This document shows positions 1,572-32,964 of a stretch of DNA of 43,546 bases, piece after piece. Within the stretch, counting starts at the first letter, position 1. The number at the start of each line of letters is the position of its first letter. Made by a program: the position numbers and the translations under genes. Origin of the DNA: a virus. The DNA is taken from positions 1-43,546 of IMG/VR virus record IMGVR_UViG_3300020596_000002; one strand, given 5' to 3'. A model generated the notes under the pieces. It did no database searches. It saw only the letters and a program-made list of their open reading frames with translations, and was not told the DNA's origin.

Positions 1572-4500
1572 ATGGCTGATATCGTATCGCAGGATTTCGT
1601 TAATAAGTATTCCATACAATATGATGCAACTGCCAATGCTACTGGAATAGGGGAAAAAGCATTTGGAGCCGTTGCAGCTACCATTGCTGCTTTAGGGGTT
1701 AATACGTTTAATTCCCTCGTCTCAATTCCTGAATTCATCCCCTTTGTTGGTATTCATGGTATTGGCGTGAGTAATAGTTCCGGTATTGACATGAGTAAAT
1801 CAACAATAGATACCTATGAAACTTTAGCAGGAATCAATGATAATTGGGCTAATGTATACGCTGATAACAAAGACTTCGTAGAAACTGCCGCGTTTATTAC
1901 TGGCATCATTATACCCGCTGGCATTGCGCTAAAAGGTATGCGCTTATTGCAGGCAGGCAGGCTTGGCATGTACGCTAGGGCTGGATTAGACGATTATTCT
2001 CAATTGAAGCGAACCAGCCAATACTGGGAAGCATTGCAATACGCGCCAAAGAATAAGCTTCTTCAAGACAGTATTCGGCGCAAGATGTTATTCGTTAATG
2101 TAGGCCAAGAAGCTAGTCTAGCTCTTGGCATGGAAGTGGCTATTCTTGCGACACAGAATCAATCCATTCTTATGGAAGATTATATTCGTGACCCAGGTAA
2201 GAATATTCTTCTTGGTATGATTGGCGGTGGAGGTGCTTTTGGCGCAGGATTAGCAACTGTAAGTATAGCTCTTGGCCAGATAGCTATTAGAAGCTCATTA
2301 GCTAAAGGTGCAGCTGAGATAGTAGAACGAGCAATAGACGACACGCGTAAGTTAGCTGGTGCAACGCTCCCAGTTAATATTTCCTATATAGATGAATATC
2401 AGCGCATGACATATAAAGCCAGTGAGCTTAGGAATTATGCGACTAACGATGATAATATTCCATTACACAAAGAACTTGCTGCATCACTCGCATCTGTCAT
2501 AGAAGGAAAAGCCGGTAAGCTGCTGACCGACAATATTCATTCGCCAGAATTAAAGAATTGGCTAGATGCTAATAGAACTACGCCTGATGGCATAGAAACT
2601 ATGAAGGTAATCAACGGTCTTATTAACTTTTCGGGTACCTGGGGAGGAAATACTATTGCTCGCCCAACATTTGATCTTAAAACACTGAATACTGCTACGG
2701 CAAAAAATTTCAATTCTGCTGTTACTATACAAGAACGTGTTGATGCCGCTACGAGTGTTGGTTTTGCCGATGAAGTTCTCAACGCAGTAGGGCAGAAACT
2801 TGGTGTTAGGCCAATATATATGGGGTTATCTACTAAACCTGCATACATAGCGTCGCTTACAGGTGGAAAAATAAATTGGCATCATATACAAATGCCAAAC
2901 ATAAGTGACCAAGCATATAGGGTTAAATATGGGCTGAGTACAAACAGTGTTCTAGCTCATGAATTAGGGCACGCTGTTGCACAAGCAAATAATCTTAACA
3001 GCGAGCTTACTCTACAGACGCAATTAGCTTTACGTAAGGAGTTAGAACCCCTGTCCAAAAGCTTCAAGCCTAAAATATGGGATCGTGGACCACTCTATGC
3101 TGGTCTCGGCAGGGAATTAATTGCCGATGGTGTGGCTATATGGATGCTTGTTCCGTCTGTGCGTAAGAAGATGCCACTATTCGCAGCGCATATTGGTGAG
3201 GCCGTTGCTTATGCGCAATTCGATACTCTAGCTTCGAACATAACACGCGAATTACGTAAGTTAGCAATGGATAAAACATCATTAGCAATTAGTAAGGTAT
3301 ATCAAGCAAGTCCAAATTGGGGTGGTATGCCTTCTACAGTTATTAATGATACGAATAAAAATACCGGACTAGAGAACCTTACTACTTATTATTCTCCGCT
3401 TTTTAAGGCTTATGCCAGCAAGGAAGATATAACGCAGGTGCTTCGCGCGGTAGATATTGGATTCATTAAACCGCAATATATACAATCAATAGGGCGTCTT
3501 GGGTCAGACGCTGATTTACAATTGCTTAATCGTAAAGCTTCTCCCGGATTTATAGATGCACACTATATTAACGCGCTGCATACTGTGAATACATATAGGC
3601 ACAATGGCGAAGTATTTATTCCTACTGATGATATTGCTGTAGCGCAAGCTTGGTATAGCCGTCTGTCTAAAGATCTTGCCAATGGTATACCCACTAAAAT
3701 CAAGCTTACTACTGTTCCTACTGTTGTTGATGGTATTTCACAGAGTGCTATTAAGTCTAGTTCCAAGGAAATTTCCCTGGAAGAACTTAAGCAACATATT
3801 GTGACTACCAAAGGCGACTATCTTGCCGGACTTCTCAAGGCTGGAGCTTCATCGCAGGAAATGAGTATTAGGTTGAATCTACCCATGGATAACATTAATG
3901 CGATTATTGCTCAAGGCAAGCGCATTGACGAGGTAGGTGATATCGGTACTTATGTAAATCCTGCGCATATTCAAGATGCCTACATGTCTCAAGCTAATAG
4001 AGTATTAGCGATATCTTCCAACGCGCGTAAGCTTATGAGCAGTAAATTGCGCGGTCCTGATAACGCGGCTATCTTTGATACAGAGGCTATCCAGCTCGCT
4101 AATTCTGAGATTGTAGATGTTGTTATGTCATCCAGTAAAAGTACTTTGGGCCAAGCAATTTATAAGAGAATTCTTAGCGATAAGGATTCCTGGGATATGA
4201 TTAAGGAAGCTGTAGGGCAAATCAGCAATGAGAACGTCGGCGCTATCATGATAAATAGTGCAGACTTCTATTTGCGCCGTCTAGGTGTTGCTGGAGAAAG
4301 AATGGCAGTGCTTGGGCAGGAGACTACGCATACGCTCAATAGTACTAGTTCAGATATTCTTGCGCCTTCTGCTGCTATGCTTCGCGCGTTTAAAAGCACA
4401 TTAGCAGGACGAGAGGAATTTAATAGGGTGATCAATATCCTAAACGGTACTGGGGGTTATCGTAATATTGATGGGAATGGAAAGTTATATAAAACAGCCA

Positions 4501-7133
4501 TGGGTGAGCAAGGTTCTGTAAAGGAATACATTACGGAAACTGATGGTCGTGCGCTCTATATTTCCCCCGAGATGCAGAAAATATTAACTGAATTTTCCTC
4601 TGTGTCAAAAGAGCAATTGGAACTGCATAATACTTACAATCGCCTTCTCGGCTTCAAAGATATGAGTGATATCGGACTGCACATTCCTGCCTTTAATCCA
4701 AAAAATAAATTTATCTCCTATATACTGGATAGAGAATCTACTAGCCCAGACCAGCGGATTAGGCTATTAGTTGCCCGCGATGGTAAAAGTCTTGAGGCTA
4801 TGGAAGATCATTGGCAAAGAACTGTAGGTTCTAACAATAAGCGTTTTGAACTTATTGGTTCTAAGAGCAATCAGGAGGATTATAATTATTGGCATCAACG
4901 TGTTAGTCCCATTGAAATGGATTTTGCTGATGTAAGCAAAATCCATAGTGGCGCATCTGGGCAATTCTTTAATCCACTTGGTGACGATTATGCAGAGACT
5001 ATTATCAATAACTGGCATAATCGATTTATTCACTATGGTAAGAAATTACAGCAGGTCTATCTAAGTGATCTTATGGAACACCTAGATAACATGTCTGCCG
5101 TCAATAAGTCTTATACTAAGAATCAACCTGCAAGCAATAGAATAGCACAGCTTAACCAAGCCCCGGATGCTGCACTGGCGGTCAAGAATATTATCCTCGG
5201 CAACGATCAACTTGATGCTTCTATGACATGGAAGGCAGTGAATAATGGCGTAGCTGCTGCCATGGATTATGCTATTCAAAAGGTAGCAAAACCAATTGAA
5301 GGATTCGCGCAGTTTATTTCCGATGGTAAATATCTTACGAAACAGGCATTCACTGGGATTACTAATATCCCGACAGTAGGAAAGGCTGAAGTTTCATATA
5401 AGCGGCTTTCACAGGAACTTAAGAGCCAGGGCTTTCGGTTGCCCTTTGAGAATTTCGCACACTATGAAGCTTTCAAAAAGGATACAACGGGGAGTGTAAC
5501 AGCTTTATGGGATATATCAATAGATAAGGGTACTATTAGAGCGCCTTCACAGGAAGCAGGAGAGAGGTTCATCGCTCAAATGGATAAACTTCAGATAGTG
5601 GAAACAGCGCGTAGACTTGAAGTATCTCCCGCTAAGGCTGAGGAATATATTCAGGCAGGTGCCTCCTTCCTTACTATGACTGCGCTGAAAGTATTAGAAT
5701 TCGGCCATGCTGCTGTTACTGCGATGTCATGGCCCATTATGACACTGCCTAATCTTTATCGTGACTTCACTAAAACACCAATCAGTGAGACTATGGGAGT
5801 AGTATTTCCCTTTAGACTTATCAGCGATGGAATTAGATTTCGTCATAGTGCCGTTGGTGCAAGTAAGATGAAACAATGGACTGCGGAAGGATACGCTGGT
5901 TCTATTGTTAGTGAGGTACAGGAAATGCAAAAGCTCCTGAATACGGGGGGAAAAGGTGCTGTCGCTAGGATCAATCAGATAACTAACAGTAAATTGGTTG
6001 AAAGGCTCTCAACAGCTACTAATTTTGCGGAAGAAGAAACTAGGCTGTGGAGTCTTTCTACTGGCTATCTTGCGGCTAAAAAAGCATGGCCAGGTATTAG
6101 TGATCGCGAGGCGGATATGTTTGCTAAATCCTTTCTTGCGCGCAGTGTTGGCAACTATAATTCTGGCCAACGTCCTGCGCTATTCCAAGGTGTTCTTGGA
6201 CAAACCATTGGCCTATTCCAAACTTATATGCTCTCTTGGGCACAGAATATGTACAGGAATATTGAAGAAAAGAGTTTTAATGCACTTATGAGTCAGAGTC
6301 TCTTTCAGGCAGGGATGTTTGGTATGTCCAGTATGCCGCTGTATAATCATTACTCTACGGCAATAGGAGAACACTTCAGCGATAAACACTTCGATCTTAC
6401 TACTGGAACTTATCGCGCTGTGCCAGAACCAATAGCTGATTTCCTGATTTATGGATTACCCGCATCACTTGGTGTTGGATTGTATACTCGCGGTAACATT
6501 CAACCTAGGGTTCCATTTGTTCAGGATAAACCAATGGATACCATCGCTACGGTCAATGTTATTCGTCAGCTGTATGGGGCAACAACGGAGATGATTACGG
6601 GCGCAATGGCTAGTAACGGAATGGCAGATAAGACTAGGGCGATACTGGAAGGACTTAGTGTTCAGAGTATGAGTAGGCCAATGGCTAGAATAGTGGAATT
6701 GCTCCCACAATATAATCAGGAGACAGGAGATGTAGTTCCTGTTGGAACTGTTACTAGGAAGGGCAATACTGTGGGAACAAGTGATATGGTATGGAGTATT
6801 CCTGGTGTACTCTCTCGCGTTTTTGCTTCTAGGAGTAGTCAGGAAGCTATCAAAAGGGACATGTTGTATTTGTCCTCTTATTACGGCAGTCTTGATAGCG
6901 ACAACAGGAAGGAAGCTGCACATCTTATGAAAATATCTCTGCGAAATGGTACTCTAAATTCGGATAATTTAGATATCATTGCTTCAAGGTATCTTCGTAG
7001 TGGCACTGCCCAAGGATTTAGGAGTGCGCTTAATGAGGCAGTAGCCACTACGGAAGGGGGAATAGATGCTACCATGGCTAAAAAGGTTAGAGATGGTAGC
7101 CCATTTATGAGTATGATTGATTACGCCTACTAG
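1572..7133 (+). CDS. Giant internal virion protein with embedded zincin-type metalloprotease motif
   Basis: This 1853-aa protein is the last and largest gene of the rightward unit, the usual place for the large ejection protein of podoviruses. Residues 463-467 read HELGH within AHELGHAVA. About 50 residues later comes ELIAD (E515, D519), giving the HExxH...E layout of gluzincin-like zinc peptidases. Hydrophobic, Gly/Ala-rich stretches occur near residues 25-60, 100-125 and 210-240, and again in the C-terminal third, which could insert into the envelope. No lysozyme or transglycosylase motif was recognised. The protease domain may cleave peptidoglycan crosslinks, envelope proteins or host proteins after injection; that is inference. 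The stop codon shares CTAG with the convergent gene. Confidence 0.8.
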   Translation: MADIVSQDFVNKYSIQYDATANATGIGEKAFGAVAATIAALGVNTFNSLVSIPEFIPFVGIHGIGVSNSSGIDMSKSTIDTYETLAGINDNWANVYADNKDFVETAAFITGIIIPAGIALKGMRLLQAGRLGMYARAGLDDYSQLKRTSQYWEALQYAPKNKLLQDSIRRKMLFVNVGQEASLALGMEVAILATQNQSILMEDYIRDPGKNILLGMIGGGGAFGAGLATVSIALGQIAIRSSLAKGAAEIVERAIDDTRKLAGATLPVNISYIDEYQRMTYKASELRNYATNDDNIPLHKELAASLASVIEGKAGKLLTDNIHSPELKNWLDANRTTPDGIETMKVINGLINFSGTWGGNTIARPTFDLKTLNTATAKNFNSAVTIQERVDAATSVGFADEVLNAVGQKLGVRPIYMGLSTKPAYIASLTGGKINWHHIQMPNISDQAYRVKYGLSTNSVLAHELGHAVAQANNLNSELTLQTQLALRKELEPLSKSFKPKIWDRGPLYAGLGRELIADGVAIWMLVPSVRKKMPLFAAHIGEAVAYAQFDTLASNITRELRKLAMDKTSLAISKVYQASPNWGGMPSTVINDTNKNTGLENLTTYYSPLFKAYASKEDITQVLRAVDIGFIKPQYIQSIGRLGSDADLQLLNRKASPGFIDAHYINALHTVNTYRHNGEVFIPTDDIAVAQAWYSRLSKDLANGIPTKIKLTTVPTVVDGISQSAIKSSSKEISLEELKQHIVTTKGDYLAGLLKAGASSQEMSIRLNLPMDNINAIIAQGKRIDEVGDIGTYVNPAHIQDAYMSQANRVLAISSNARKLMSSKLRGPDNAAIFDTEAIQLANSEIVDVVMSSSKSTLGQAIYKRILSDKDSWDMIKEAVGQISNENVGAIMINSADFYLRRLGVAGERMAVLGQETTHTLNSTSSDILAPSAAMLRAFKSTLAGREEFNRVINILNGTGGYRNIDGNGKLYKTAMGEQGSVKEYITETDGRALYISPEMQKILTEFSSVSKEQLELHNTYNRLLGFKDMSDIGLHIPAFNPKNKFISYILDRESTSPDQRIRLLVARDGKSLEAMEDHWQRTVGSNNKRFELIGSKSNQEDYNYWHQRVSPIEMDFADVSKIHSGASGQFFNPLGDDYAETIINNWHNRFIHYGKKLQQVYLSDLMEHLDNMSAVNKSYTKNQPASNRIAQLNQAPDAALAVKNIILGNDQLDASMTWKAVNNGVAAAMDYAIQKVAKPIEGFAQFISDGKYLTKQAFTGITNIPTVGKAEVSYKRLSQELKSQGFRLPFENFAHYEAFKKDTTGSVTALWDISIDKGTIRAPSQEAGERFIAQMDKLQIVETARRLEVSPAKAEEYIQAGASFLTMTALKVLEFGHAAVTAMSWPIMTLPNLYRDFTKTPISETMGVVFPFRLISDGIRFRHSAVGASKMKQWTAEGYAGSIVSEVQEMQKLLNTGGKGAVARINQITNSKLVERLSTATNFAEEETRLWSLSTGYLAAKKAWPGISDREADMFAKSFLARSVGNYNSGQRPALFQGVLGQTIGLFQTYMLSWAQNMYRNIEEKSFNALMSQSLFQAGMFGMSSMPLYNHYSTAIGEHFSDKHFDLTTGTYRAVPEPIADFLIYGLPASLGVGLYTRGNIQPRVPFVQDKPMDTIATVNVIRQLYGATTEMITGAMASNGMADKTRAILEGLSVQSMSRPMARIVELLPQYNQETGDVVPVGTVTRKGNTVGTSDMVWSIPGVLSRVFASRSSQEAIKRDMLYLSSYYGSLDSDNRKEAAHLMKISLRNGTLNSDNLDIIASRYLRSGTAQGFRSALNEAVATTEGGIDATMAKKVRDGSPFMSMIDYAY

Positions 7134-13651: not shown

Positions 13652-13951
13652 TTAGTGTATTTGATTGAAAATGATTTTGAGTCTTTCTTTTTCCCACGAT
13701 ACATCTTTATTTTGTAGCTGTAATAATTTAATTCTTTGCCTAATTAACCACGGGCTAGGTGCGCTTTGTAAGGCTAATTGATTTAGTTCTAGCTTATCAT
13801 CAATTTTTATTATGCTGTTCGCATTTATTTTCCATGCACGATAGAGCACAGTCCAATGGTTCCACAGCCCTAGTTTATCTTCCACTGCTACAGCATTCAC
13901 GTATGAAACACAACAACAAATTATCAGTATTCCTGTTATCACTTTTTGCAC
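13652..13951 (-). CDS. PglL/O-antigen ligase-like protein, fragment D (C-terminal domain)
   Basis: Starting at GTG 13951, the 99-aa product has an N-terminal hydrophobic helix (VITGILIICCCVSYVNAVA). A helical region with LNQLALQSAPSPWLIRQRIKLLQ follows and resembles the soluble C-terminal part of PglL-type O-oligosaccharyltransferases. It overlaps fragment C by 13 bases. The junction TGC AAA AAG TGA has five A bases, where a -1 slip would fuse C and D as ...TQCKKVITGIL. It may be a separate subunit, a frameshift product or a decayed remnant. Confidence 0.55.
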   Translation of the reverse strand: MQKVITGILIICCCVSYVNAVAVEDKLGLWNHWTVLYRAWKINANSIIKIDDKLELNQLALQSAPSPWLIRQRIKLLQLQNKDVSWEKERLKIIFNQIH

Positions 13952-14310
13952 TGTGTCATTCCCAGAACTAATCCGAAAATTATTAGGTATTGCATATAGG
14001 CGTAAGGGAATTCCACAAGACTATGAAAGAACATTATTGCTGCTATGCCATATAAAGGGACATCGTTAGCCCTAAAGTTCCTAGGAATACTGCACAATAA
14101 TACAATAACAATAAGTGCCAGTCCAATAATTCCCGTTTCAGCCATAAAATGAATAAAGATATTATGCGCATTGCGATCCATTCCCATTGTTGCACTATTC
14201 TCATATAACCAGTATGGTAATTCGCCCCATCCTATACCAAACCACGGCGCAGAAAGAAAGGCATTGAAAGCTTGTATCCATAGGTCAATTCTTATTGTGA
14301 TAGAATCCAT
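13939..14310 (-). CDS. PglL/O-antigen ligase-like protein, fragment C (Wzy_C core)
   Basis: The 123-aa fragment carries the diagnostic part of the Wzy_C family: APWFGIGWGE, then NAHNIFIHFMAETGIIGL, then HSLVEFPYAYMQYLIIFGLVLG. These match the conserved periplasmic loop and last helices of PglL/WaaL ligases. In those enzymes the loop His contributes to transfer of polyprenyl-linked glycans to lipid A core or protein. ATG 14310 lies 26 bases inside the end of fragment B, which is +1 relative to it. An in-frame TAG sits just upstream, so C cannot simply extend leftward. Confidence 0.7.
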   Translation of the reverse strand: MDSITIRIDLWIQAFNAFLSAPWFGIGWGELPYWLYENSATMGMDRNAHNIFIHFMAETGIIGLALIVIVLLCSIPRNFRANDVPLYGIAAIMFFHSLVEFPYAYMQYLIIFGLVLGMTQCKK

Positions 14311-14713
14311 GCGCTACCCACAGAATGATAAGATAAAACAAAGCTGTTTTGCTTCCCGACAGCATCAATGCCACAGAGAGGATAGCGAATACCACTGGAT
14401 GGTTAAAAGAACTAGCCATGCCGCAGGCTATCCAATTTGCGAACAGATTTTTCTGTCCTATTAAGCCCGGAATTCCAATAATATTAGGCTGAATGACAAG
14501 TAGCGCCAGCGGAATTGACATTATAGCACTCCATCGAATACCCGCTAGAAGATACGCTTTCTTATCTTCTATCAAGGGGCCATAGTGAAGGCAGATAAGA
14601 AAGATGGCGATATAACATGCAGCCAATACGCCTTTATCTGGATAATATGTGGGCTGTGTGAGAATGTGCAGGATTAGAATAATTCCCGCGCTATTCCTTA
14701 TGATTCTTTCCAT
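14285..14713 (-). CDS. PglL/O-antigen ligase-like protein, fragment B (membrane helices)
   Basis: This frame is open upstream to a TTG at 14851, but the membrane-like sequence begins only near MERIIRNSAG (ATG 14713), so that start is preferred (142 aa). It contains several transmembrane segments and the family-typical IPGLIGQKNLFANW and LSGSKTALFYL motifs. It continues fragment A in the -1 frame with a 16-base overlap and is followed by fragment C in +1. As a whole the four pieces resemble a shortened PglL (about 395 aa; family members are often 550-600). Confidence 0.65.
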   Translation of the reverse strand: MERIIRNSAGIILILHILTQPTYYPDKGVLAACYIAIFLICLHYGPLIEDKKAYLLAGIRWSAIMSIPLALLVIQPNIIGIPGLIGQKNLFANWIACGMASSFNHPVVFAILSVALMLSGSKTALFYLIILWVAHGFYHNKN

Positions 14714-14847
14714 AGCAATAGGCATCCCAATAATACGCAGGCTATTATTTCCTGCCAAAAAGATTGCGGTTCTGGATTCATTGATGGTATCAAGAATGGG
14801 ATGAAAGCAATGGCAAATACTATTGTAGATTTGATCTTTGTGTCCAT
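14698..14847 (-). CDS. PglL/O-antigen ligase-like protein, fragment A (N-terminus)
   Basis: This 49-aa frame begins at ATG 14847, nine bases after a strong GGAGGT site, which decides the start. It encodes two hydrophobic segments around a loop (IPFLIPSMNPEPQSFWQEI) like the N-termini of PglL proteins, which have a Pro-x-Pro..Phe-Tyr loop after helix 1. It stops at TAA 14698, just after the ATG of fragment B. The start overlaps the end of the 81-aa gene upstream by 28 bases. Its short length makes it easy to miss. Confidence 0.6.
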   Translation of the reverse strand: MDTKIKSTIVFAIAFIPFLIPSMNPEPQSFWQEIIACVLLGCLLLWKES

Positions 14848-15065
14848 ACAAGTCTTACCTCCGTTATACCTTTTGCATTAGTATATAATTCCTCACAAAA
14901 ATCAAACTCTTTGATGTTCGTTACATGCCCTAGAAATTGTAGCGTTTCTGTTACCCTAAACTCTAATGTTTCCCCAGTATAATATCGGCTTAATTCTGTT
15001 CTAGCGTGTTCTTCGTCCGTCATAGCCAAAACATGGGGCGGAATATATACAGATACTGTGCTCAT
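14820..15065 (-). CDS. Hypothetical protein, 81 aa
   Basis: A soluble, slightly acidic small protein (MSTVSVYIPPHVLAMTDEE...) that I do not recognise. It starts at ATG 15065, overlapping the previous stop (ATGA), with GAGGAT upstream. Its 3' end carries the ribosome site and start of the O-antigen ligase fragment A, so its translation is likely coupled to that gene. Confidence 0.7.
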   Translation of the reverse strand: MSTVSVYIPPHVLAMTDEEHARTELSRYYTGETLEFRVTETLQFLGHVTNIKEFDFCEELYTNAKGITEVRLVWTQRSNLQ

Positions 15066-18453: not shown

Positions 18454-19073
18454 TATATATAATCCTTCACGTTAACTTTCTCTGTTTTCGTCATGCGATA
18501 CTTTATTAATTCGTATGTTGAATTTATTATTTGTTGTACTCTTTGTCGTGATATCCGGTATCGTTCCGCTATCTCATTATGCGTTAGTTCTTCGTAATCA
18601 AATAGTGCATGAGCGTGAAACAATATCTCAAGATGGTGCAGTTTTATGCCATGGCATGCGCAAGATAAGACTTTTTCTATGTCTACTTGCGCCCTATTAA
18701 TATCACCCATGGAATTATCCGGCGGAATAATATCAACGTCGTCGTCACGCTTGTTATCTATGGACAGCATATTAATTGGATATTGCATATCCCTACCATC
18801 AGCCCATGGGTATTCAGATAATTGAAGTTTAGTTAGTTCTCCCCGCATTTTCCAGTAAGCGAAAGTTAGGAATTTATTTTCTAATTCGGGCTTGAATTCC
18901 TTTATTGCCATTAATATGCCTATGTTGCATGCCTGTTTTCTATCTTCCTCCGGAATGATTTTAAAATTAAATGAATTGACTAATTTAAATATCATTCCAC
19001 TGTGGCGTTTTATTAATGCGGCGAGTGCCTGTTCTTTATATTCCGCTATTAATTCTTCGTCTGATATTTTCAT
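18453..19073 (-). CDS. Phage sigma-70-like factor
   Basis: The protein is 206 aa. A region 2-like block spans residues 17-85, with DRKQACNIGILMAIKEF followed by FLTFAYWKMRGEL, the aromatic -10-recognition helix typical of sigma factors. A region 4-like helix-turn-helix lies at about 161-193 (LTHNEIAERYRISRQRVQQII). It should bind host core RNA polymerase and direct it to phage promoters, probably the late rightward unit, since no phage RNA polymerase is seen. ATG 19073 overlaps the helicase stop. The linker (residues 90-135) is shorter than in housekeeping sigma factors. Confidence 0.85.
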   Translation of the reverse strand: MKISDEELIAEYKEQALAALIKRHSGMIFKLVNSFNFKIIPEEDRKQACNIGILMAIKEFKPELENKFLTFAYWKMRGELTKLQLSEYPWADGRDMQYPINMLSIDNKRDDDVDIIPPDNSMGDINRAQVDIEKVLSCACHGIKLHHLEILFHAHALFDYEELTHNEIAERYRISRQRVQQIINSTYELIKYRMTKTEKVNVKDYI

Positions 19074-21352
19074 TCTTCTTCTCCTTCAAGTAATTCTTCG
19101 CTGTTTATAACGATAGTCCAATCATTCATTAATGCGCGTGCTGTTGTTACCCAATTGGGCAACATTGGGCCACTGTAATATTGCTTAGGTTCTTGTTGCA
19201 TTAAACGCATTGCCATTTCCCAATCTTTGCCATGGCCTGTCATATTCACATATCGTGCAGTTATTAAATGGCAAATTTCGTGTATTACAGTTTCATTGCA
19301 GATATATGAATATAATTCGGGCTGTTTTGCGGAAAGATAAATTGGATTCAATTTTATTTGATGATATTTTGGGATAGCTAATCCTATAGTCTTGCCTCGT
19401 TGACAATCAAATGTCAAGCTTGGGTAATCACCTAATACGTCGCCCCATATTCTTTTGGCAGAATCCCAATGTTTTATGAGATTACTTTTTGCCAATTCCT
19501 TTACGTGCAATGGTACATATTTTTGAAAGTCTGTTACGGTACAAGATCTAACTTCAATTTTTTCTGGCATATTTAATGCCGGTTTTTTCTGTTCTATTAT
19601 TATTTCGTCCGGTTCGCCTAAAGGTGCCCATTCACCCGGCTTTATGACTGGATAACTACTCATATCGACAGTAGCTTTAGCGTTAATATGTGCTATTTTT
19701 TCTTCTAACGTCTTGCCACGGATTATTTGATTATCTACTGCTTTTTGTAGTATTTTTTCTGTTGCTATATAACAGATTTTTTCTCTCGCCCTAGTAGTCG
19801 CAGTGTATATCCATTCTCTGGAAACGAAACTACCTTTTGTAGCGTGTTCTTCGTGCAAAAGAATGAATACTTTGCGCCATTCTGATCCTTGCGCTTTGTG
19901 GCAGGTAGTAACGTATCCTAATGAGAATCCTGCGGGACTAAAATCTCCTGCTGTTTGCAATTGATATTCTTCGTCCGGCGTATCTTCTGCTAATTTTTCC
20001 GCATATTTATATGTGATTATTGCACTGGCCTGATTTTTTCTTTCATCATCTGCCACGTCATCGACGTTAATATCGGCATAACCTGTTAATTCCATATGCG
20101 CTTCGATGTCATGATTGGCATCTTTTGATTCTGCTGCACGATAAAATCCAGTTCGCAACAAATTTTCTGATGCGATTTTAGTACTGCGTCCGGCATAACC
20201 CGGATTGTGCATAATATTTGTAATGATGCACAAATTCTTATCTACTAGGATAAGGTCGCCTTTTGCAAGATAAATATTGCGCCTACCTGCAATTATCTCA
20301 TGCACGATCACTTTTCTTTCATCGCCCATAAATTGCGCTATCCAGTTATTCATCGCTTTAGTTCCCATCTCCTGTTCATTCCACGGAGATAAGATAGCGT
20401 CTGTTAATGGATCATAATCGCCTTTTATGTGTCTTTTCTGAAAGAATCCTCCAGCTTTCCCTAATGCCATTCCAGCACGTGATTGTGACATTTTCTTTGT
20501 TTTTACTTCATCCCACCAGATTATTTCAGTGTCTTTATTCTTAACAGGTATTTTACCGTCTAGAATATTCCATGCGTTTTGCAATACGCCAGAATCATCG
20601 GCTTGGCGATATATTTTAGTTAATTCAATCACTGGTAATTGGTGTAATGCAAAATTGAATATGCTTTTCCCAAATACTGGCGGTAATTGATTAATATCAC
20701 CGATGAATATTACGATAGTACCGGGAAGCATTGCAGCATAGAGTTTTTCATATAACAATAAATCGCACATCGGTGCTTCGTCAATATTCAGTATCTTGAA
20801 TGAAAATGGTCTATTCTCATTCCGTGTTTCAACAAACCGCATCTTATTTTTGCCGGTTTCGATATCCTCATAATATTCTGGTTTAAATTCTAGGTGTTTA
20901 TGCAATGTTTGTATGCACGTCGATACTTGCTTAAACAGTTCTGTATCGCGTGCTAAAGCTTTCCGCGTATTGCCTGTTGCTACACGCGTTAGCGCACCGA
21001 TCGCTATATGGCGCGCTGGATGTCCCATATCTAACAGCGCTTTAAAAATTGCTCTCTCAAGCGTTGTTTTACCGGTTCCTGCTGCGCCAGTTATAACAAA
21101 TGACACGCCTTTTTTTACCAGTTCAATTGCTGCTAATTGTGATTTATCCAGCGTTATATTCAAGCTGAATGTTTGTTCTTGTCTTACAGATACATTTTCA
21201 ACAATGGGAATAGGAACAGAGTCTGTGCTTAATTCCTTTTTTTGTTTAAAATCGCTGATAATTCCTAACCGCTCTCGGATAGGAATATTGCGCCAATCGG
21301 CACTCTCTTGCAGCGCCTTTAAATCTGGGTACTTTATTGCCAAGTTATGCAC
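19070..21352 (-). CDS. SF1 helicase (RecD/Pif1-like) fused to SprT-like metalloprotease
   Basis: The protein is 760 aa. Helicase motifs: Walker A GAAGTGKTT (89-97, K95), Walker B NIDEAP (D191, E192), GDINQLPP (218-225), LTKIYRQ (244-250), TTCHKAQGSEW (482-492) and TATTRAREK (517-525). From about residue 625 a SprT-like domain follows, with HEICH (691-695) and GHGKDW (H707), the zinc ligands of SprT/Spartan proteases. Spartan enzymes degrade proteins crosslinked to DNA, and Pif1/RecD helicases translocate on single-stranded DNA. The fusion could unfold and digest roadblocks ahead of replication. GTG 21352 is the likely start (AAAGGA about 8 bases upstream). Confidence 0.9.
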   Translation of the reverse strand: MHNLAIKYPDLKALQESADWRNIPIRERLGIISDFKQKKELSTDSVPIPIVENVSVRQEQTFSLNITLDKSQLAAIELVKKGVSFVITGAAGTGKTTLERAIFKALLDMGHPARHIAIGALTRVATGNTRKALARDTELFKQVSTCIQTLHKHLEFKPEYYEDIETGKNKMRFVETRNENRPFSFKILNIDEAPMCDLLLYEKLYAAMLPGTIVIFIGDINQLPPVFGKSIFNFALHQLPVIELTKIYRQADDSGVLQNAWNILDGKIPVKNKDTEIIWWDEVKTKKMSQSRAGMALGKAGGFFQKRHIKGDYDPLTDAILSPWNEQEMGTKAMNNWIAQFMGDERKVIVHEIIAGRRNIYLAKGDLILVDKNLCIITNIMHNPGYAGRSTKIASENLLRTGFYRAAESKDANHDIEAHMELTGYADINVDDVADDERKNQASAIITYKYAEKLAEDTPDEEYQLQTAGDFSPAGFSLGYVTTCHKAQGSEWRKVFILLHEEHATKGSFVSREWIYTATTRAREKICYIATEKILQKAVDNQIIRGKTLEEKIAHINAKATVDMSSYPVIKPGEWAPLGEPDEIIIEQKKPALNMPEKIEVRSCTVTDFQKYVPLHVKELAKSNLIKHWDSAKRIWGDVLGDYPSLTFDCQRGKTIGLAIPKYHQIKLNPIYLSAKQPELYSYICNETVIHEICHLITARYVNMTGHGKDWEMAMRLMQQEPKQYYSGPMLPNWVTTARALMNDWTIVINSEELLEGEEE

Positions 21353-21760: not shown

Positions 21761-22731
21761 TGTTTTATTCCTTTTTCTGCAAATATCTCTGCTAGTGTTT
21801 TCCTACTTTTTGTGGCTGGTATTTCGGTATCCATTGCGCCGAGAATATCATCGTCTGTATTATGGTCAATGGCATTTTCTATAATCCATGCAAGATTATT
21901 TGCCTTATCAGTTTCTTTCATGTTGCTCGCTGCTAAACGTATAGTCATGGCTAGTTCTATTCGCTTTGTGCTACTTATTGCCCATAAGTTTGCCATTATT
22001 TTTTCTGCTTGCAGCGTTATATTTCGCGGTAATTTATCCTTAAAGAATGTAATTAATCGCTTCGCTGTGTCTTTTTGTTTCAACAAACTATCGTCTTTAA
22101 TTTGATTTATACTGCGATTAATTGCATTCTCAATTAATACAGGATCATTTTTATTTTTGTTGTTTTTGATACTATTTTCTTTGAATGCTTTGTATACTTC
22201 GGCCGTATCTGCCGCGGGCAATTCGTCCAGACTCAAAGCTTTTCTAATTATGCGCGTGTGCCTTGAGATTACCATCGCCATACTTTGTTGAGCTTGGCTG
22301 TACGCCACTAGATCAAATGATAACTTCGGGACTCTTATCCACGTTGCATCGCTATCCCAACGCGCCATTATCACGTCGGCAAATTGCCAAAGAATATCTG
22401 TTCCGGCGCTTTGCAATAGCATGTTAGCTTCCGTAGCGCTGCTATTCGGGTATCCCGTAGTCTTACCCTTTGCGCTCAACAAGGATAAAACACAGCCTGC
22501 CATTAACTGTACTTCAATTTTATCTTGTGATTTATTATTTTTTGCTGCCGTTAATAGTTTTATTGCATTTTCCGCTGATGCTGCTGGATGTTTATGGTCT
22601 AGTACTATGCCATAAATACCGCAAGTGCGCAGCGTACTTATCATTCCGGTTATTGGACAATGTATAAGTACATCATTGTCCAATTTTCCTGTTGAAAAAT
22701 TGAATTTTTGCTTATTTATTATTTTATACAT
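21757..22731 (-). CDS. Hypothetical protein, 324 aa
   Basis: A mostly helical soluble protein that I do not recognise. It begins MYKIINKQKFNFSTGKL, carries CPITG and HCP-like segments near residue 25, and has a Lys/Asn-rich helical C-terminal half. GAAAGG precedes ATG 22731. It is the first conventional gene after the cysteine-repeat cluster and heads the block ending in the helicase and sigma factor. The N-terminal HCPITGMISTLRTC may bind a metal, but only two Cys and one His are close together. Confidence 0.7.
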   Translation of the reverse strand: MYKIINKQKFNFSTGKLDNDVLIHCPITGMISTLRTCGIYGIVLDHKHPAASAENAIKLLTAAKNNKSQDKIEVQLMAGCVLSLLSAKGKTTGYPNSSATEANMLLQSAGTDILWQFADVIMARWDSDATWIRVPKLSFDLVAYSQAQQSMAMVISRHTRIIRKALSLDELPAADTAEVYKAFKENSIKNNKNKNDPVLIENAINRSINQIKDDSLLKQKDTAKRLITFFKDKLPRNITLQAEKIMANLWAISSTKRIELAMTIRLAASNMKETDKANNLAWIIENAIDHNTDDDILGAMDTEIPATKSRKTLAEIFAEKGIKQ

Positions 22732-22765
22732 TTTAAACCTTTCGTTTTATGCTACGTTTAATGAA

Positions 22766-22990
22766 TCAGGCCTCAACAGAACTATAAACACTGTCGCAAT
22801 AATTGCAATGATTACAATAATAGCAAAGAATGCTATTATTGCACTGCGGGCAATTGCTGTTATTGCATTCATTGCTATTATTGCTATTATTGCAATAACA
22901 GCAATTAATGCAATTATCGCAATTATTGCAATTAATGCAATTAACGCATTCGTCGTTATTTGCTGTTATTGCGAATTTAAATATTTTCAT
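22766..22990 (-). CDS. Cysteine-triplet-repeat protein 1 (degenerate, 74 aa)
   Basis: This is the last of five paralogues in the direction of transcription. It begins MKIFKFAITA like the others but lacks the KGNSSYS..SQ..A leader segment. It then runs into Cys-x-x-Cys repeats (VNC INC NNC DNC INC), several with Ser replacing Cys (NNS) and one phase slip (NCPQC). AAAGAGG precedes ATG 22990, one base after the stop of paralogue 2. Deletion of the leader and loss of Cys suggest decay or a divergent role. Function unknown. Confidence 0.65.
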   Translation of the reverse strand: MKIFKFAITANNDECVNCINCNNCDNCINCCYCNNSNNSNECNNSNCPQCNNSILCYYCNHCNYCDSVYSSVEA

Positions 22991-22991
22991 C

Positions 22992-23384
22992 TTATGCCTC
23001 TTTTTTTAATTCGTAATAATTATTCCGTGTGCTATAATTATTACAATTATAGCAATTATCACATTTATCGCAATCATTACATTGCTCACAGTTATAGCAT
23101 TCTATACAATAATTGCAATTATTGCAATAATAGCAATACCAACAATAATTGCAATTAATACATAAATTAGCATCATCGCAATTGCGACAATTAGTGCATT
23201 GACGACAATTAGTGCAGCAGATACACTTATAACAATGGCGACAATTAATACATTCAATGCAATAACGGCAATTAATACAGCCATTATCATCCAAAAATTG
23301 TGCATTCTTTTCCGCCATGTCTTGCGAAAAATTGGAATAGGAGGAATTGCCTTTTGCTGTGATTGCGGAAGTATAGAGTATCAT
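22992..23384 (-). CDS. Cysteine-triplet-repeat protein 2 (130 aa)
   Basis: ATG 23384 (MILYTSAITAKG) is the start: AAAGGAAA lies upstream, within the stop region of paralogue 3, and the conserved leader begins here. The longer open frame upstream reads antisense-like repeats of the neighbour. After SAITAKGNSSYSNFSQ and LDDNGC there are about 26 triplets of the form x-x-Cys (INC RYC IEC INC RHC), with Asn or an aromatic residue common before Cys. The C-terminus (NNYYELKKEA) leaves the repeat. Strict three-residue phasing suggests a regular rod or solenoid, with metal or disulfide chemistry possible. No known family recognised. Confidence 0.75.
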   Translation of the reverse strand: MILYTSAITAKGNSSYSNFSQDMAEKNAQFLDDNGCINCRYCIECINCRHCYKCICCTNCRQCTNCRNCDDANLCINCNYCWYCYYCNNCNYCIECYNCEQCNDCDKCDNCYNCNNYSTRNNYYELKKEA

Positions 23385-23385
23385 T

Positions 23386-23808
23386 CTATGTTTCCTTTTG
23401 ATTGCAAAATTTACAATAATTGCATTTATCGCATTTGCTGCAAAATTCGCAATAAGTACAATAATGGCAACTACCGCAATAATGGCAAAATTCGCAATAA
23501 TTGCAATTGCCACAATAGGTACAGCTAATGCAATTAGCACAGATTTTGCAATTGTGGCAATAATCACAGTTATCGCAGTCGTCACAATTACGGCAGCAAT
23601 AGCAATTACGGGAATTGTAACAGTTTATGCTATTGGTACAATCTTTGCAATAACTACAACTAGTACAATTAATGCAATTAATGCAATGAATGCAATTGGA
23701 ACAGCCATTATCGTCCAGCACTTTTGCATTAACATCTGCCATTTCCTGTGAAGTGTAGGAATAGGAGGAATTGCCTTTTGCCGTTATTGCGGATCTAAAC
23801 ATTTTCAT
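23386..23808 (-). CDS. Cysteine-triplet-repeat protein 3 (140 aa, longest array)
   Basis: ATG 23808 follows a GGAAAGGAAAGGAA tract. The leader is MFRSAITAKGNSSYSYTSQ, then VLDDNGC. It is followed by 33 consecutive triplets, 31 ending in Cys and two in Ser, with no phase error. The second triplet position shifts from mostly Asn early to mostly Tyr/Phe late (EFC HYC GSC HYC TYC). The stop is followed after one base by the start of paralogue 2, so the two are co-translated. The protein has no other domain. Confidence 0.78.
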   Translation of the reverse strand: MKMFRSAITAKGNSSYSYTSQEMADVNAKVLDDNGCSNCIHCINCINCTSCSYCKDCTNSINCYNSRNCYCCRNCDDCDNCDYCHNCKICANCISCTYCGNCNYCEFCHYCGSCHYCTYCEFCSKCDKCNYCKFCNQKET

Positions 23809-23837
23809 TTCCTTTCCTTTCCTTATTGTACTGCGAA

Positions 23838-23887
23838 TAGTATCTATCCTCATGCCCACATTATTATGGGCATGAGGATAGATACTA
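23838..23887. repeat. 21-bp perfect inverted repeat between paralogues 3 and 4
   Basis: Arms 23838-23858 and 23867-23887 are perfectly complementary around an 8-base loop, with core CCTCATGCCCA / TGGGCATGAGG. The right arm covers the stop codon of paralogue 4. No T-tract follows in the leftward direction, so this is probably an RNA processing, attenuation or stability hairpin, or a DNA-level cruciform. It shares the CATGCCCACA core with the hairpin at 24306-24335. Confidence 0.8.
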
Positions 23888-24166
23888 CGTCATGCAATTG
23901 GTACAATAGTTGCAATTACTACAATTGTGCCTATTATCGCAATTGCTACAATAGGTACAATTGCTACAATAGGCACAATTGTTACAATTGGTGCAATTGG
24001 TGCAATTGGTGCAATTGTAACAACCAATGCAATTGCTACAGTTAATGCAGTCGTGGCAATTAATACAGCCATTATCATCTAGATATTGTGCATTCTTTTC
24101 CGCATCATCTTGAGAGATGAATGAATAGGAGGAATTGCCTTTAATCGTGATTGCGGAAGAGTACAT
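23885..24166 (-). CDS. Cysteine-triplet-repeat protein 4 (93 aa)
   Basis: ATG 24166 (MYSSAITIKG) follows AAAGGAAA. After the leader SAITIKGNSSYSFISQ and LDDNGC come 20 phased triplets, 18 of them with Cys as third residue (INC HDC INC SNC IGC YNC TNC TNC TNC). Asn is the usual residue before Cys, and one triplet has lost its Cys (DNR). Including the leader Cys there are 19 Cys in 93 residues. The protein is secreted-signal-free and so presumably cytoplasmic, where thiols would be reduced and could bind metals. Function unknown. Confidence 0.77.
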   Translation of the reverse strand: MYSSAITIKGNSSYSFISQDDAEKNAQYLDDNGCINCHDCINCSNCIGCYNCTNCTNCTNCNNCAYCSNCTYCSNCDNRHNCSNCNYCTNCMT

Positions 24167-24214
24167 TTTTCGTTTCCTTTGGTTTGGTTGTGAATAGTTT
24201 CGCATCGTCCTATC

Positions 24215-24304
24215 TATTAACTATAATCCAGTCTTTTCGACGATTTCGGCAAATTTTCCGGGATTTTCGCCAATTTCGCCAATTTCCCCGGATTATAGTT
24301 AATA
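24215..24304. repeat. 15-bp inverted repeat enclosing a 60-base structured spacer
   Basis: Arms 24215-24229 (TATTAACTATAATCC) and 24290-24304 are perfect reverse complements. The spacer has tandem TTTCGCCAA copies and several GG/CC patches, so it may fold into a multi-branch RNA. It lies between paralogues 4 and 5 with no gene. A small RNA, a leader or a recombination site is possible. Confidence 0.7.
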
Positions 24305-24305
24305 A

Positions 24306-24335
24306 TCCCATGCCCACAATTGCGCAGGCATGGGA
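24306..24335. repeat. Hairpin related to the one at 23838-23887
   Basis: Arms TCCCATGCC (24306-24314) and GGCATGGGA (24327-24335) surround a 12-base loop. It shares CATGCCCACA in the left arm with the hairpin after paralogue 4. It is followed by a purine-rich tract with tandem GGAGAT (to about 24357). Its position immediately downstream of paralogue 5 suggests that the hairpin duplicated together with the genes. Confidence 0.65.
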
Positions 24336-24358
24336 ATGAGGATGGAGATGGAGATGGG

Positions 24359-24613
24359 CTACTCTGGCTCGTCGCAATTTATTGCATTGCGATATCCTGT
24401 GCGATCGCTGCAATTATCGCAATTGACACACATGATACAATTGCTACAATTGCCGCAATTGTGACAGTAGCGACAATTGCGGCAATTGACACACATGATG
24501 CAGTCCACGCATCCAGCAGCGTCCAGAGCTTCCGCCCTGGCATCTGCCGTCATTTGGGATATGTGGGAAAAAGATGAATTACCTTTTGCTGTGGTCGCTG
24601 AATAATACAACAC
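24359..24613 (-). CDS. Cysteine-triplet-repeat protein 5 (84 aa, first in the leftward unit)
   Basis: GTG 24613 is the likely start: AAAGGAAA lies 5 bases upstream and the leader YYSATTAKGNSSFSHISQ begins here. An in-frame ATG at 24661 has no ribosome site. About 15 triplets follow (VDC IMC VNC RNC RYC HNC GNC SNC IMC VNC DNC), then the array degenerates (SDR TGY RNA INC). It is the first gene after the control region, so it should be among the earliest transcribed genes. It shares leader and array architecture with the four genes downstream. Confidence 0.72.
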   Translation of the reverse strand: MLYYSATTAKGNSSFSHISQMTADARAEALDAAGCVDCIMCVNCRNCRYCHNCGNCSNCIMCVNCDNCSDRTGYRNAINCDEPE

Positions 24614-24700
24614 TTTAATTTCCTTTGGTTTGGCTGTTTGGCTGCGGGTACTGACTCGCATCAGTATGATCGCATTCCGGGCCCATGTCTAGAAAAAAAG

Positions 24701-24720
24701 TGTAACAATTTGTAACAAGA
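24701..24720. promoter_or_regulatory. Tandem 10-bp repeat, putative operator or leftward -35 region
   Basis: TGTAACAATT is directly followed by TGTAACAAGA. On the leftward strand this reads TTGTTACA twice, with 10-bp (one helical turn) spacing, and a T-run follows. It lies about 90 bases upstream of the first leftward gene. A regulator or sigma-factor binding site is suggested by the spacing only. Confidence 0.45.
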
Positions 24721-24793
24721 TTTTGTGATCGCAGGCCCATTGTACCGGCCAATCGGTCGGGACGCAAGACAAGCCTATCGGCCGATCGCACGC

Positions 24794-25145
24794 TCGCAGG
24801 GCCGCTCAATCACTCAATCCAGGGGGGCGGAGTAGGTCCCGGGTAGGCCCAAATCCGTTAGCATCCATCAATCAGGGTGATGATGGCTAGATATGCCGTA
24901 AGTGTTTGCAATATCTGATTCATGGGTCGTTGTAGAGAGCAAAATTTAAAAAAAAAAAAACAGAGATATTCTTTCGTGTCAAGCACTTTTTTTTGCTCTG
25001 GACATACTGCGTATACATATACCTGCCATAGCCGTACCCTATCGGGATACTAGTTGGCATAGAGTATCCCGGATTTGGGGCGGGAATCCGGCATGCCTCC
25101 CCCCGTGGATTGGCTGGTTGAACGATCGGTTGAGCGGCCCTGCGA
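24794..25145. repeat. Long-range 16-bp inverted repeat
   Basis: TCGCAGGGCCGCTCAA (24794-24809) is the exact reverse complement of 25130-25145. The two arms bracket about 320 bases of the control region. Related CGCAGG and GGCC(A/G)AT words repeat beside both arms. It could close a large RNA domain or mark the ends of an inserted or invertible segment. Confidence 0.6.
25043..25091. promoter_or_regulatory. Pair of overlapping, mutually exclusive hairpins
   Basis: Hairpin 1 pairs 25043-25051 (CGGGATACT) with 25063-25071. Hairpin 2 pairs 25069-25075 (CCGGATT) with 25085-25091. Bases 25069-25071 belong to both stems, so they cannot form at once. That arrangement is typical of attenuators and switch-like leaders. 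It lies about 300 bases before the rightward first gene. No known riboswitch recognised. Confidence 0.45.
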
Positions 25146-25228
25146 TCCTGCGATTGGCTATGAAAGTGTCGAAATATCGTCACTAGATACTGATTGCTAT
25201 TTCGCCTAGCGATGCAGACCAAAAAATA

Positions 25229-25290
25229 TATAATCAGGTCGTGAAAAATAAAAGAGAAAAGACTTGCATGTGCCGTTTAGTCGTGATAAT
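25229..25290 (+). promoter_or_regulatory. Candidate rightward promoter elements
   Basis: A perfect TATAAT lies at 25229-25234 without a good -35 box. A second candidate has TTGCAT at 25264-25269 and GATAAT at 25285-25290, a 15-base spacer that is shorter than optimal. Both precede the gene at 25392 by about 100-160 bases. One may serve the phage sigma factor rather than the host factor. Confidence 0.35.
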
Positions 25291-25391
25291 GTGTATGGAT
25301 GCTGATGTTTACATATTGCGGATACGCTAACAGTGCCTACCGGACATTGTTAGGGCAATCTGCCCACAACCACAAATCAAAGGAAAACAAA

Positions 25392-26048
25392 ATGAACACA
25401 ATCAATTGGTCTATCGCCAAGGTCGAAGCTAACGTCACCGAAGGGCCGAAAGGCGATAGGAAGCGCGTGAGCGTAGGGTTTTATGATCTTCCCTACGCCA
25501 CCGTGATGGCGTTCAAGGATGCCATCAACAGCGTCAAGGTAGATGTTGACGCCTCCGCAGTATCGGCTGACAACACCGAAGGGATTACGGTGTACAGCAG
25601 TGACAGTCCGCTCGATGCGGACGTCGTTAACTGGTTGCAAAGCGCCATCCTTGCCAAAATTAAGGTCAAGGGTAGCAATCAGCTCGTCACTGGCACAAAC
25701 AAGCTTATGGACGGAAAAGCTTTTGCCATCGATTTCGAGACTCTGCTAGAGTCTGGCGAGCGTGGCGGAGCGCACCAACGCTTGAAGGCTGAAAGCGTTG
25801 TCGCATTCGTCGCATACCTTACGGGGCTTGGCAAGTCTACCCAAGTCGTGGAGGGTTTCCGCGCCATGTTCCGGCAGCCTGCGGATGTGCTCTCGCATCA
25901 GCCTGAGAAATATAAGATGAGAATGCAAGAGTATCTCACGGGCTTTGCGTCTAGCCTCAGCGCGGAAAATGTGGAGCGGTATAAGAAGTTCCTCGTGGCC
26001 GTTGAGGATGCCGCCGCGTCAACTGAGGAAGAAGATATGCTCGCATAG
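25392..26048 (+). CDS. Unknown 218-aa protein, GC-rich codon use
   Basis: ATG 25392 (MNTINWSIAKVEAN) follows AAAGGAAAAC; the open frame to 25299 has no ribosome site. The protein is soluble, mixed alpha/beta. Its C-terminus is acidic (EDAAASTEEEDMLA), and a helical region sits near residues 130-200. I do not recognise a family. Third codon positions are much richer in G and C (GCC, GTC, AAG, CGC) than in any neighbour, so the gene looks recently acquired or kept at host-like codon use for strong early expression. It is the first gene of the rightward unit and is followed by hairpins and iterons. Confidence 0.75.
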   Translation: MNTINWSIAKVEANVTEGPKGDRKRVSVGFYDLPYATVMAFKDAINSVKVDVDASAVSADNTEGITVYSSDSPLDADVVNWLQSAILAKIKVKGSNQLVTGTNKLMDGKAFAIDFETLLESGERGGAHQRLKAESVVAFVAYLTGLGKSTQVVEGFRAMFRQPADVLSHQPEKYKMRMQEYLTGFASSLSAENVERYKKFLVAVEDAAASTEEEDMLA

Positions 26049-26056
26049 GGAGATGC

Positions 26057-26089
26057 GCTGGCACGCGGTAGATGTTATCGCGTGCCAGC
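26057..26089. terminator. 11-bp perfect hairpin after the first rightward gene
   Basis: Arms GCTGGCACGCG (26057-26067) and CGCGTGCCAGC (26079-26089) enclose an 11-base loop, 8 bases after the stop codon. A very stable stem suggests termination or mRNA 3' protection, but no T-tract follows; the next bases enter another hairpin that shares 26086-26089. Confidence 0.55.
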
Positions 26090-26133
26090 ATATGCTAATA
26101 TATGCTGGATGTTGCGTATATTAGCATATGCTG
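26086..26133. repeat. 20-bp near-perfect inverted repeat
   Basis: CAGCATATGCTAATATATGC (26086-26105) pairs with 26114-26133 with one mismatch around an 8-base loop. Inside each arm AGCATATGCT is itself palindromic. It overlaps the right arm of the preceding hairpin by four bases, so the two RNA folds compete. It borders the iteron field and is followed by an A-run (26141-26148). It could be a protein-binding palindrome at an origin or packaging site. Confidence 0.65.
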
Positions 26134-26154
26134 ATGTAGGAAAAAAAATTTAAA

Positions 26155-26530
26155 ACCTTAAAGTGAAGTACGATAAAATCAAAAACTTAAACCTTTAAGT
26201 GAAGTACGATAAAATCAAAAACTTAAAACCTTAAAGCTTAAGTGAAGTACGATAAAATCAAAAACTTAAACCTTTAAGTGAAGTACGATAAGATCAAAAG
26301 CTTTAAATACGATAAGGTCAAAAACATAAATGTTAAGATCAAAAGCTTTAAATACGATAAGGTCAAAAACATAAATGTTAAGATCAAAAACTTAAAACCT
26401 TAAAATCAAAAACTTAAAACCTTTGAGTGAAGTACGATAAAATCAAAAACTTAAAACCTTAAAGCTTAAGTGAAGTACGATAAGATCAAGATCAAGATCA
26501 AAAGCTCAAGTGAAGTACGAAAGATCAAAA
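26155..26530. repeat. Iteron-like repeat field upstream of terminase
   Basis: The 12-mer AGTGAAGTACGA occurs seven times in the same orientation, starting at 26162, 26198, 26241, 26277, 26426, 26469 and 26509. Each is followed by ATAAAATCAAAAACTTAAA or a close variant, except the last, which is truncated. Between copies 4 and 5 lies a two-copy tandem of about 45 bases built on TACGATAAGGTCAAAAAC. The field is non-coding and almost devoid of G/C apart from the repeats. Such arrays are seen at replication origins and at terminase-binding (pac/cos) sites; adjacency to the terminase genes favours packaging, but neither is proven. Confidence 0.8.
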
Positions 26531-26532
26531 CC

Positions 26533-26566
26533 AAAAGCACTATGTAGTGGGGGTAGTAGCTTTTTT
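26533..26566 (+). terminator. Possible rho-independent terminator before terminase
   Basis: AAAAGCACTA (from 26533) can pair with TAGTAGCTTTT (26554-26564) with one bulge, followed by a T-run to 26566. The G-rich loop (GTGGGGGTAG) is unusual. It would separate transcription of the early gene at 25392 from the terminase operon. Confidence 0.4.
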
Positions 26567-26626
26567 AAATCGTAAAACCTAGGGCCTATCAATAACCAAT
26601 ACTGAATTTTTCTAATTTTTTTTTTC

Positions 26627-26698
26627 ATATCCCCATATCCCCATATCCATATCTCTCTCCATATCTCTCTATCCATATCCCCATGTCTTTCTGTTTCT
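26627..26698. repeat. Pyrimidine-rich CATATCC tract upstream of terminase small subunit
   Basis: About 70 bases consist of CATATCC(CC) and CATATCTCTC units on the top strand, almost free of G. The repeat ends 14 bases before ATG 26712. Antisense it reads as an artificial Trp/Ile-rich ORF, which is not a gene. It may be a protein-binding or unwinding element belonging to the packaging or late promoter region. Confidence 0.55.
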
Positions 26699-26711
26699 AA
26701 AAGGTAATCCC

Positions 26712-27230
26712 ATGGATCAACTAGCAATAGCCAAATACCTAGCACAAGGACTTTCGCAGGTACAAGTTGCGTCTATAATGGGATGCACTCCAAGCTATAT
26801 TAGCCAGCTAGTGGAGCAAGAAAATGTCAAAGAATTAATCCTCTTTGAGCAAAAAAGAATAGAAATAGAAAAAGAGGACGCGGTACAAGAATATAAATAC
26901 ACTTCTTTGGAAAAGAAGGCACAAGATTACTTGGAAGATCAAATGCCCTTCGCAGAATATAAGGATGTTTTGAAGCTTCTTGAGATATTAAACCGCAGAA
27001 AAGAAAAACCAGCACCACAGATAATAAATAATACCCAAATCAATGTGACAAAATTATCTATTCCAGCTGCTGCGATGCCAGAATTCACAGTAAATGCGCA
27101 GAATGAAGTAATTGGAATAGGAGAAAAGAGTTTAGCCCCTATGAGCAGCGCAGGGGTTAAAGAGATGTTCTCAAATATGAGAAAAAAAGAAGAAATAGCT
27201 GACGTTCAAGCTATTTTAAATCTAAAATGA
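26712..27230 (+). CDS. terS: Terminase small subunit (putative)
   Basis: The 172-aa protein has an N-terminal helix-turn-helix (about residues 10-35: LAQGLSQVQVASIMGCTPSYISQL), followed by a charged helical segment (EKEDAVQEYKYTSLEKKAQDYLED). The C-terminus is less ordered. This domain order is typical of phage small terminases, which bind packaging sites as rings. The ATGA overlap with the large subunit gene and the iteron field upstream support the call. Sequence identity to known families cannot be judged here. Confidence 0.8.
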   Translation: MDQLAIAKYLAQGLSQVQVASIMGCTPSYISQLVEQENVKELILFEQKRIEIEKEDAVQEYKYTSLEKKAQDYLEDQMPFAEYKDVLKLLEILNRRKEKPAPQIINNTQINVTKLSIPAAAMPEFTVNAQNEVIGIGEKSLAPMSSAGVKEMFSNMRKKEEIADVQAILNLK

Positions 27231-28702: not shown

Positions 28703-28760
28703 TAAACAACACACCATTTTAATAAACAACACACCATTTTAATAAACAACACACCATTCT
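28681..28760. repeat. Four-copy 20-bp tandem repeat at the terL-portal junction
   Basis: The unit AATAAACAACACACCATTTT occurs four times in a row; the first copy begins AACAA and the last ends ATTCT. The first copy encodes the C-terminal Thr-Pro-Phe and stop of terL. The copies after the stop keep repeating that tail and are not coding. The portal ribosome site AGGAG follows directly. Slippage expansion is likely. Confidence 0.9.
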
Positions 28761-28771
28761 AGGAGTTCACT

Positions 28772-31681: not shown

Positions 31682-31748
31682 AGAACCCTAAATCAAAACG
31701 TAATATAGTCCCAGCCCATAGTTTTTCCTTTTATATTGGAGCTGGATA

Positions 31749-32957: not shown

Positions 32958-32964
32958 AGGCCAG

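Follow-up and report, generated by a model that had tools for sequence, protein, structure and literature searches.

Does this virus carry a glycan transferase that works in four parts, or what is left of one that was made as a single chain? The window analysed here is a 43,546-base virus record, and in a run of replication-type genes it contains four overlapping minus-strand frames (A to D) that the first-pass annotation had read together as a shortened PglL/WaaL-like ligase. That annotation had proposed coupled split subunits and had named decay as an alternative. The coordinates, strand, frames and overlaps of 16, 26 and 13 nt were as it had given them. The pieces, their junctions and the neighbouring genes are as follows, with profile E values from a profile of 57 bacterial relatives and energies for the Shine-Dalgarno (SD) region.

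16382-15492: PD-(D/E)XK-like exonuclease
15065-14820: small ORF upstream of the broken gene
14848..14867, minus strand: SD region of piece A, GGAGGT
14847-14698, minus strand: piece A, ORF of 49 aa with N-terminal hydrophobic segments and the PEPQSFW loop (profile E 3.2e-4, SD -10.8 kcal/mol)
14698..14713, minus strand: A-B overlap of 16 nt, frame change -1, in a loop
14713-14285, minus strand: piece B, ORF of 142 aa from the nearest ATG with GQKN and SGSKT motifs (profile E 1.8e-4, SD at background)
14285..14310, minus strand: B-C overlap of 26 nt, frame change +1, in a loop, with about 40 residues missing relative to all 57 relatives
14310-13939, minus strand: piece C, 123 aa, putative catalytic core (Wzy_C, PF04932) with the conserved Arg, PWFGIGWGE, NAHN and HSLVEFP (profile E 2e-36)
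13939..13951, minus strand: C-D overlap of 13 nt, frame change -1, in a loop, with an A5 run and an A_AAG tetramer by the C stop
13951-13652, minus strand: piece D, ORF of 99 aa from the nearest GTG with a C-terminal hydrophobic segment and a soluble tail (profile E 4.4e-3)
13641-13417: small ORF downstream of the broken gene
13414-12509: Sak4-like ATPase
11621-9342: DNA polymerase A

Pieces A and C lie in one common frame, and B and D in another. The B frame is open already upstream of the A start (from 14851) and the D frame is open from just past 14023, so the start codons named for B and D are merely the nearest ones.

To place the four frames, we collected bacterial relatives. Piece C aligned with one Acinetobacter relative was used as the query and returned 58 loci in genome contigs. 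Piece C alone had matches, with up to 43% identity, in 112 of the 399 genomes searched from the order to which G013 belongs (E value 1e-6); G013 is a Rhodoferax locus, so the order searched is Burkholderiales. In the family of G139, 2 of 3 matched, and a search around G011 at the stricter E value of 1e-12 returned 0 of 78, missing even G011 itself, and so carries no information. None of the listed bacterial matches to piece C had an internal stop. A first profile was built from the proteins of 350-750 aa at the 58 loci, without L027, L042, L076 and L083 (53 sequences, 29 of them non-redundant), and a second excluded L115 and sequences below 400 aa (67 sequences, 57 after redundancy removal). 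The relatives in the second profile were found with piece C as the only part of the window gene, and the window sequence was not included.

We then scanned this 57-relative profile against every stop-to-stop ORF of the window that is 40 aa or longer, 403 in all. Pieces C, B, A and D were the top four in that order, and the fifth ORF scored at E = 0.4. Because A, B and D had played no part in finding the relatives, their ranking is independent support. The matched profile positions (of 579) run in gene order, with A at 13-51, B at 74-230, C at 283-409 and D at 475-532. The whole-protein profile scores of the four pieces were unmatched by any of 1000 shuffles each (749 shuffles of A, 911 of B, 875 of C and 701 of D yielded any score), and the best single-domain score of piece B was equalled by 2 shuffles. 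Individually, B and D are weak against the profile, and D was non-significant with the earlier 29-member profile. The four frames are, on this homology, one PglL/WaaL-type protein broken in three places, and the first-pass annotation's claim of such a protein with its named motifs is thus borne out.

Piece C carries the Wzy_C domain of the superfamily that joins PglL-type transferases and O-antigen ligases (54.9 bits against PF04932, curated cut-off 31.7). For Wzy_C_2 (PF11846), piece C scored 24.1 bits and the joined pieces 28.4 bits, with the cut-off at 28.5. The PglL_A domain, given as conserved in PglL and PglS in PMC12645811, was absent from the Pfam matches of A, B and the joined pieces at E values up to 1. 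The solved structure closest to piece C is the oligosaccharyltransferase 9rmk (E 3e-8). As judged by sequence, the relatives are PglL-type protein O-oligosaccharyltransferases (O-OTases) and O-antigen ligases, mainly of Burkholderiales.

Next, we assessed how well the protein has been kept. Fourteen of the columns in which at least 80% of the 57 relatives agree fall in piece C, and the window protein is identical at 13 of them; we take these columns to be those of the catalytic loop. The predicted catalytic part is thereby well preserved. Across the whole protein, 16 of 23 such columns are identical. Among the departures are a Lys in place of Arg in B and further sites in A, B and D, and some of these look alignment-shifted. 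The joined protein has 396 codons, which bears out the description of the ligase as shortened when set against the 57 relatives (median 585 aa, minimum 428), but the Wzy_C protein of phage VarioGold, at 411 aa, is of similar size. Length has been lost at the breaks: the B-C junction spans 26 residues where each of the 57 relatives has 64 or more, and the C-D span is 75 residues against a median of 108, with one relative shorter still. Residues are missing inside pieces as well (33 against at least 43 in B, 46 against at least 49 in C), so the shortening is partly in frame and not confined to the breaks. This in-frame loss suggests a compact form that was under selection before, or despite, the breaks. 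Within the 396 codons there is no nonsense codon, and 4.3% of single changes there would give one; by this measure the gene has diverged by no more than about 0.06 per site since it was broken.

These observations fit best, we consider with moderate confidence, with a single phage-borne O-OTase gene that was recently disabled and is now the remnant of an accessory gene. Decay, named as an alternative in the first-pass annotation, is thus the reading we now favour, given that only one piece has a strong start and that residues are missing at the breaks. When intact, the gene would have encoded a membrane enzyme of the PglL or O-antigen-ligase kind, carried by the phage among its replication genes. 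From its family, such an enzyme would move a lipid-linked glycan of the host to a periplasmic acceptor (pilin, another surface protein or lipid A-core), and the transfer may alter the receptors of the infected cell and so shut out competing phages. In the present copy, three frame changes would break the chain: translation would start well at A and stop 49 residues on, which should leave no working enzyme, and the copy is most likely inactive. The breaks would be recent relative to the divergence from the bacterial relatives, since there are no nonsense codons and segments are missing near the breaks. With 13 of 14 conserved columns retained in C and no piece containing a stop, decay would be young at most. 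The in-frame shortening and the position of all three breaks in loops also count against this reading, as does the fact that no second copy of the locus was seen. The phage itself probably infects uncultured, betaproteobacterial hosts.

Three frame changes within the bound of about 0.06 per site fit recent decay and also error, and frame breaks seen in a single sequence are treated as likely indels or sequencing errors in PMC3711429. The main rival to a decayed gene is a fault of assembly or consensus, in which the true gene is intact and errors of length occurred at three places within 900 bases. We regard this as unlikely. No second contig spans the locus, and frames are otherwise well maintained. 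Contig L086 (the same contig as L023; metagenome 3300020192) starts at window position 13641, shortly after the end of D, and an assembly break may lie there. Over the 11,215 bp that L086 shares with the window, however, it is 99.65% identical with 39 mismatches and 0 gaps. Contig L002, from the same metagenome, matches 27249-35737, and its length differences are 20 nt outside genes and 6 and 9 nt, the small in-gene ones being multiples of three. Wherever L086 and L002 allow a comparison, the window contig proves sound, but the broken gene lies in neither. It would also be odd for one gene to collect three errors when the genes checked show none, and single-base errors fail to explain the residues missing at the breaks.

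Megablast of window positions 8000-30000 against phages gave no match, and no relative came from viral-contig scans with piece B, piece C and the exonuclease. When the Sak4-like ATPase and the DNA polymerase served as queries, the near-identical contig L023/L086, which does not reach the gene, was the sole match. The terminase is nearest to that of Polaromonas phage Tiera (41.7% identity) and to Pseudomonas phages of the PaMx41/PaP2/119X group.

Several other features of the window and its close contigs were recorded. Position 1 of L086 coincides exactly with the start of the next ORF after the broken gene, at its initiation codon, as though upstream of this point the strains differed. At about 4166-4169, L002 has a deletion of ~180 bp relative to window 31432-31612 that truncates the 30953-31681 ORF; it is of the same population. 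At 38271-42267, a virion protein occupies two ORFs (38513-39445 and 39430-42267). Of the 6 relatives that match it, 5 have it as one ORF of 967-1006 aa, and in the sixth it is cut at contig ends. A small ORF at 38271-38561 has two halves, similar to residues 1-37 and 755-798 of the larger virion-protein product. The ~4 kb at 22731-26712 hold few convincing ORFs. The ORF at 25299-26048 has a third-position GC of 0.63 (about 0.35 elsewhere) and no Pfam or PHROG match, and at 19070-21352 UvrD/RecD-type helicase domains are fused to a C-terminal SprT-like domain.

Could the four pieces instead be a functional split, that is, four small membrane proteins that are translationally coupled and assembled as one transferase? 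Start-bearing overlaps occur at all three junctions, overlaps of 14 to 28 nt also occur between other genes of the same phage, a second long protein of this phage is in two parts relative to its relatives, and the catalytic core is conserved. All three breaks also fall outside the hydrophobic segments; these make up 37% of the joined protein, and at that proportion three of three breaks would land in loops by chance about 1 time in 4. We nevertheless consider the split improbable. No SD in the window is stronger than that of A (-10.8 kcal/mol, with -9.2 the best among 41 other ORFs). B, C and D have energies of -4.0, -3.7 and -4.2 kcal/mol, within the range at 809 internal ATGs of other genes, where the lower quartile is -4.1 and the median -2.7, and their starts look like chance internal starts. 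When we introduced hypothetical breaks into nine other window genes, 60% of 12,057 junctions had an overlapping downstream start, and in 34% the overlap was 26 nt or less, so a start codon at three of three junctions is weak evidence of design. Profile segments are missing at the breaks, and no relative sharing the three breaks was found in the viral-contig scans with B and C or in the alignment-based scans. A coupled split gene would be expected to have an SD or other efficient start at each downstream piece and an arrangement kept in relatives; with neither seen here, the proposal of coupled split subunits was not sustained. More specifically, a compact four-part O-oligosaccharyltransferase, made by reinitiation across the short overlaps and assembled in the membrane with its breaks in loops, would be slightly less probable still. 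If the pieces were functional, four parts would, to our knowledge, be an unusually fine division for a membrane glycan transferase. Four independent genes were set aside, as three of them would have no SD.

A single protein might also be recovered by recoding, through slippage of ribosome or polymerase at the junctions, which we judge very unlikely. The suggestion that the A5 run at the C-D junction could slip holds in that an A_AAG tetramer lies by the C stop (further Z_ZZN tetramers occur in piece A), and it falters in that such tetramers need a strong stimulator for frameshifting, as stated in PMC4066793, and none was predicted there. The fold 3' of A-B is mildly stable (-19.8, where shuffles average -13.4 with an sd of 2.7), but no stimulator fold was predicted after the B-C or C-D junction. 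The X_XXZ_ZZN heptamer of programmed -1 frameshifting is absent from A and from the overlap zones, C-D included; the one heptamer in piece C, at 14059, lies outside the zone open in the D frame. Codon scoring backs a change of frame close to B-C and another close to C-D. For the A-B junction it favours the B frame from ~14765, ahead of the end of A and contrary to the PEPQSFW homology of A. Three events in series, one of them +1, would also multiply to a very low yield. Surface-glycan genes often phase-vary, and slipped-strand mispairing at repeats could in principle switch this one, but the longest homopolymer in the gene is at most 5, a repeat search found no tandem repeat at the junctions, and three breaks would have to switch in concert, which makes phase variation extremely improbable.

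With a recently disabled gene as the preferred reading, we asked how it compares with known systems. Bacterial PglL-family O-OTases (of Burkholderiales, Neisseriaceae and Acinetobacter) are colinear with the window protein over its whole length, are up to 43% identical in C and share the conserved Arg, the His and HSxxEYP; unlike the window protein, which is shorter and runs over four frames, they have one continuous reading frame (median 585 aa in the 57 used). The pilin-specific O-OTase TfpM (NF058641, 421 positions) is similar in length and gives a weak match to C and the end of B with near-equal spacing, but the window protein scores 33.5 to 35 bits where the cut-off is 600, and so falls outside that family.

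Among mobile elements, tblastn of piece C in plasmids gave no match at an E value of 0.01, and the joined pieces gave only weak matches in plasmids and phages. Two records of "Acinetobacter phage MD-2021a" with a pilin-adjacent ligase gene were rejected; the one inspected looks bacterial, filed as phage. Wzy_C was absent from the 8 terminase-relative records tested, several of which are fragments, as expected of cargo. Judging by titles and abstract openings, the literature searched describes no phage-borne PglL-type O-OTase. Variovorax phage VarioGold does carry an O-antigen ligase-like gene, VG_p25, which has a relative in phage D3 and is thought to alter surface glycans, according to PMC9658991. 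Like the window gene, VG_p25 is carried by a phage and encodes a Wzy_C membrane protein close to 400 aa in length (411 aa); unlike it, it has one frame and lies near the lysis genes of a temperate phage, and it was not among the matches of the window protein in the phage collection. The parallel with phage D3 drawn in the first-pass annotation is apt in kind, the VarioGold/D3 ligase-like gene being the published counterpart.

Finally, two alignment-based scans of viral contigs recovered two other PglL-type loci, of which one is intact and sits on a contig that is clearly phage, and such transferases look rare in the viral contigs searched; a ligase fragment at L085, cut by the locus end, was excluded. 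The intact copy (L143, IMGVR_UViG_3300031250_000102, 3275-4945) encodes a PglL-type transferase of 556 aa, is flanked by a Mu F-like head gene and a capsid gene, and scores 317 bits against the 57-relative profile, so such genes are real phage cargo. Like the window gene, it is a PglL-type protein on a phage contig (29% identical to piece C over 133 aligned positions); unlike it, it is 556 aa long, in one frame and among head genes instead of replication genes. Phage cargo that rewrites the pilin or surface glycans of the host would offer a direct means of keeping rival phages out, and a broken copy beside intact ones would show glycan-transfer cargo being both gained and lost.
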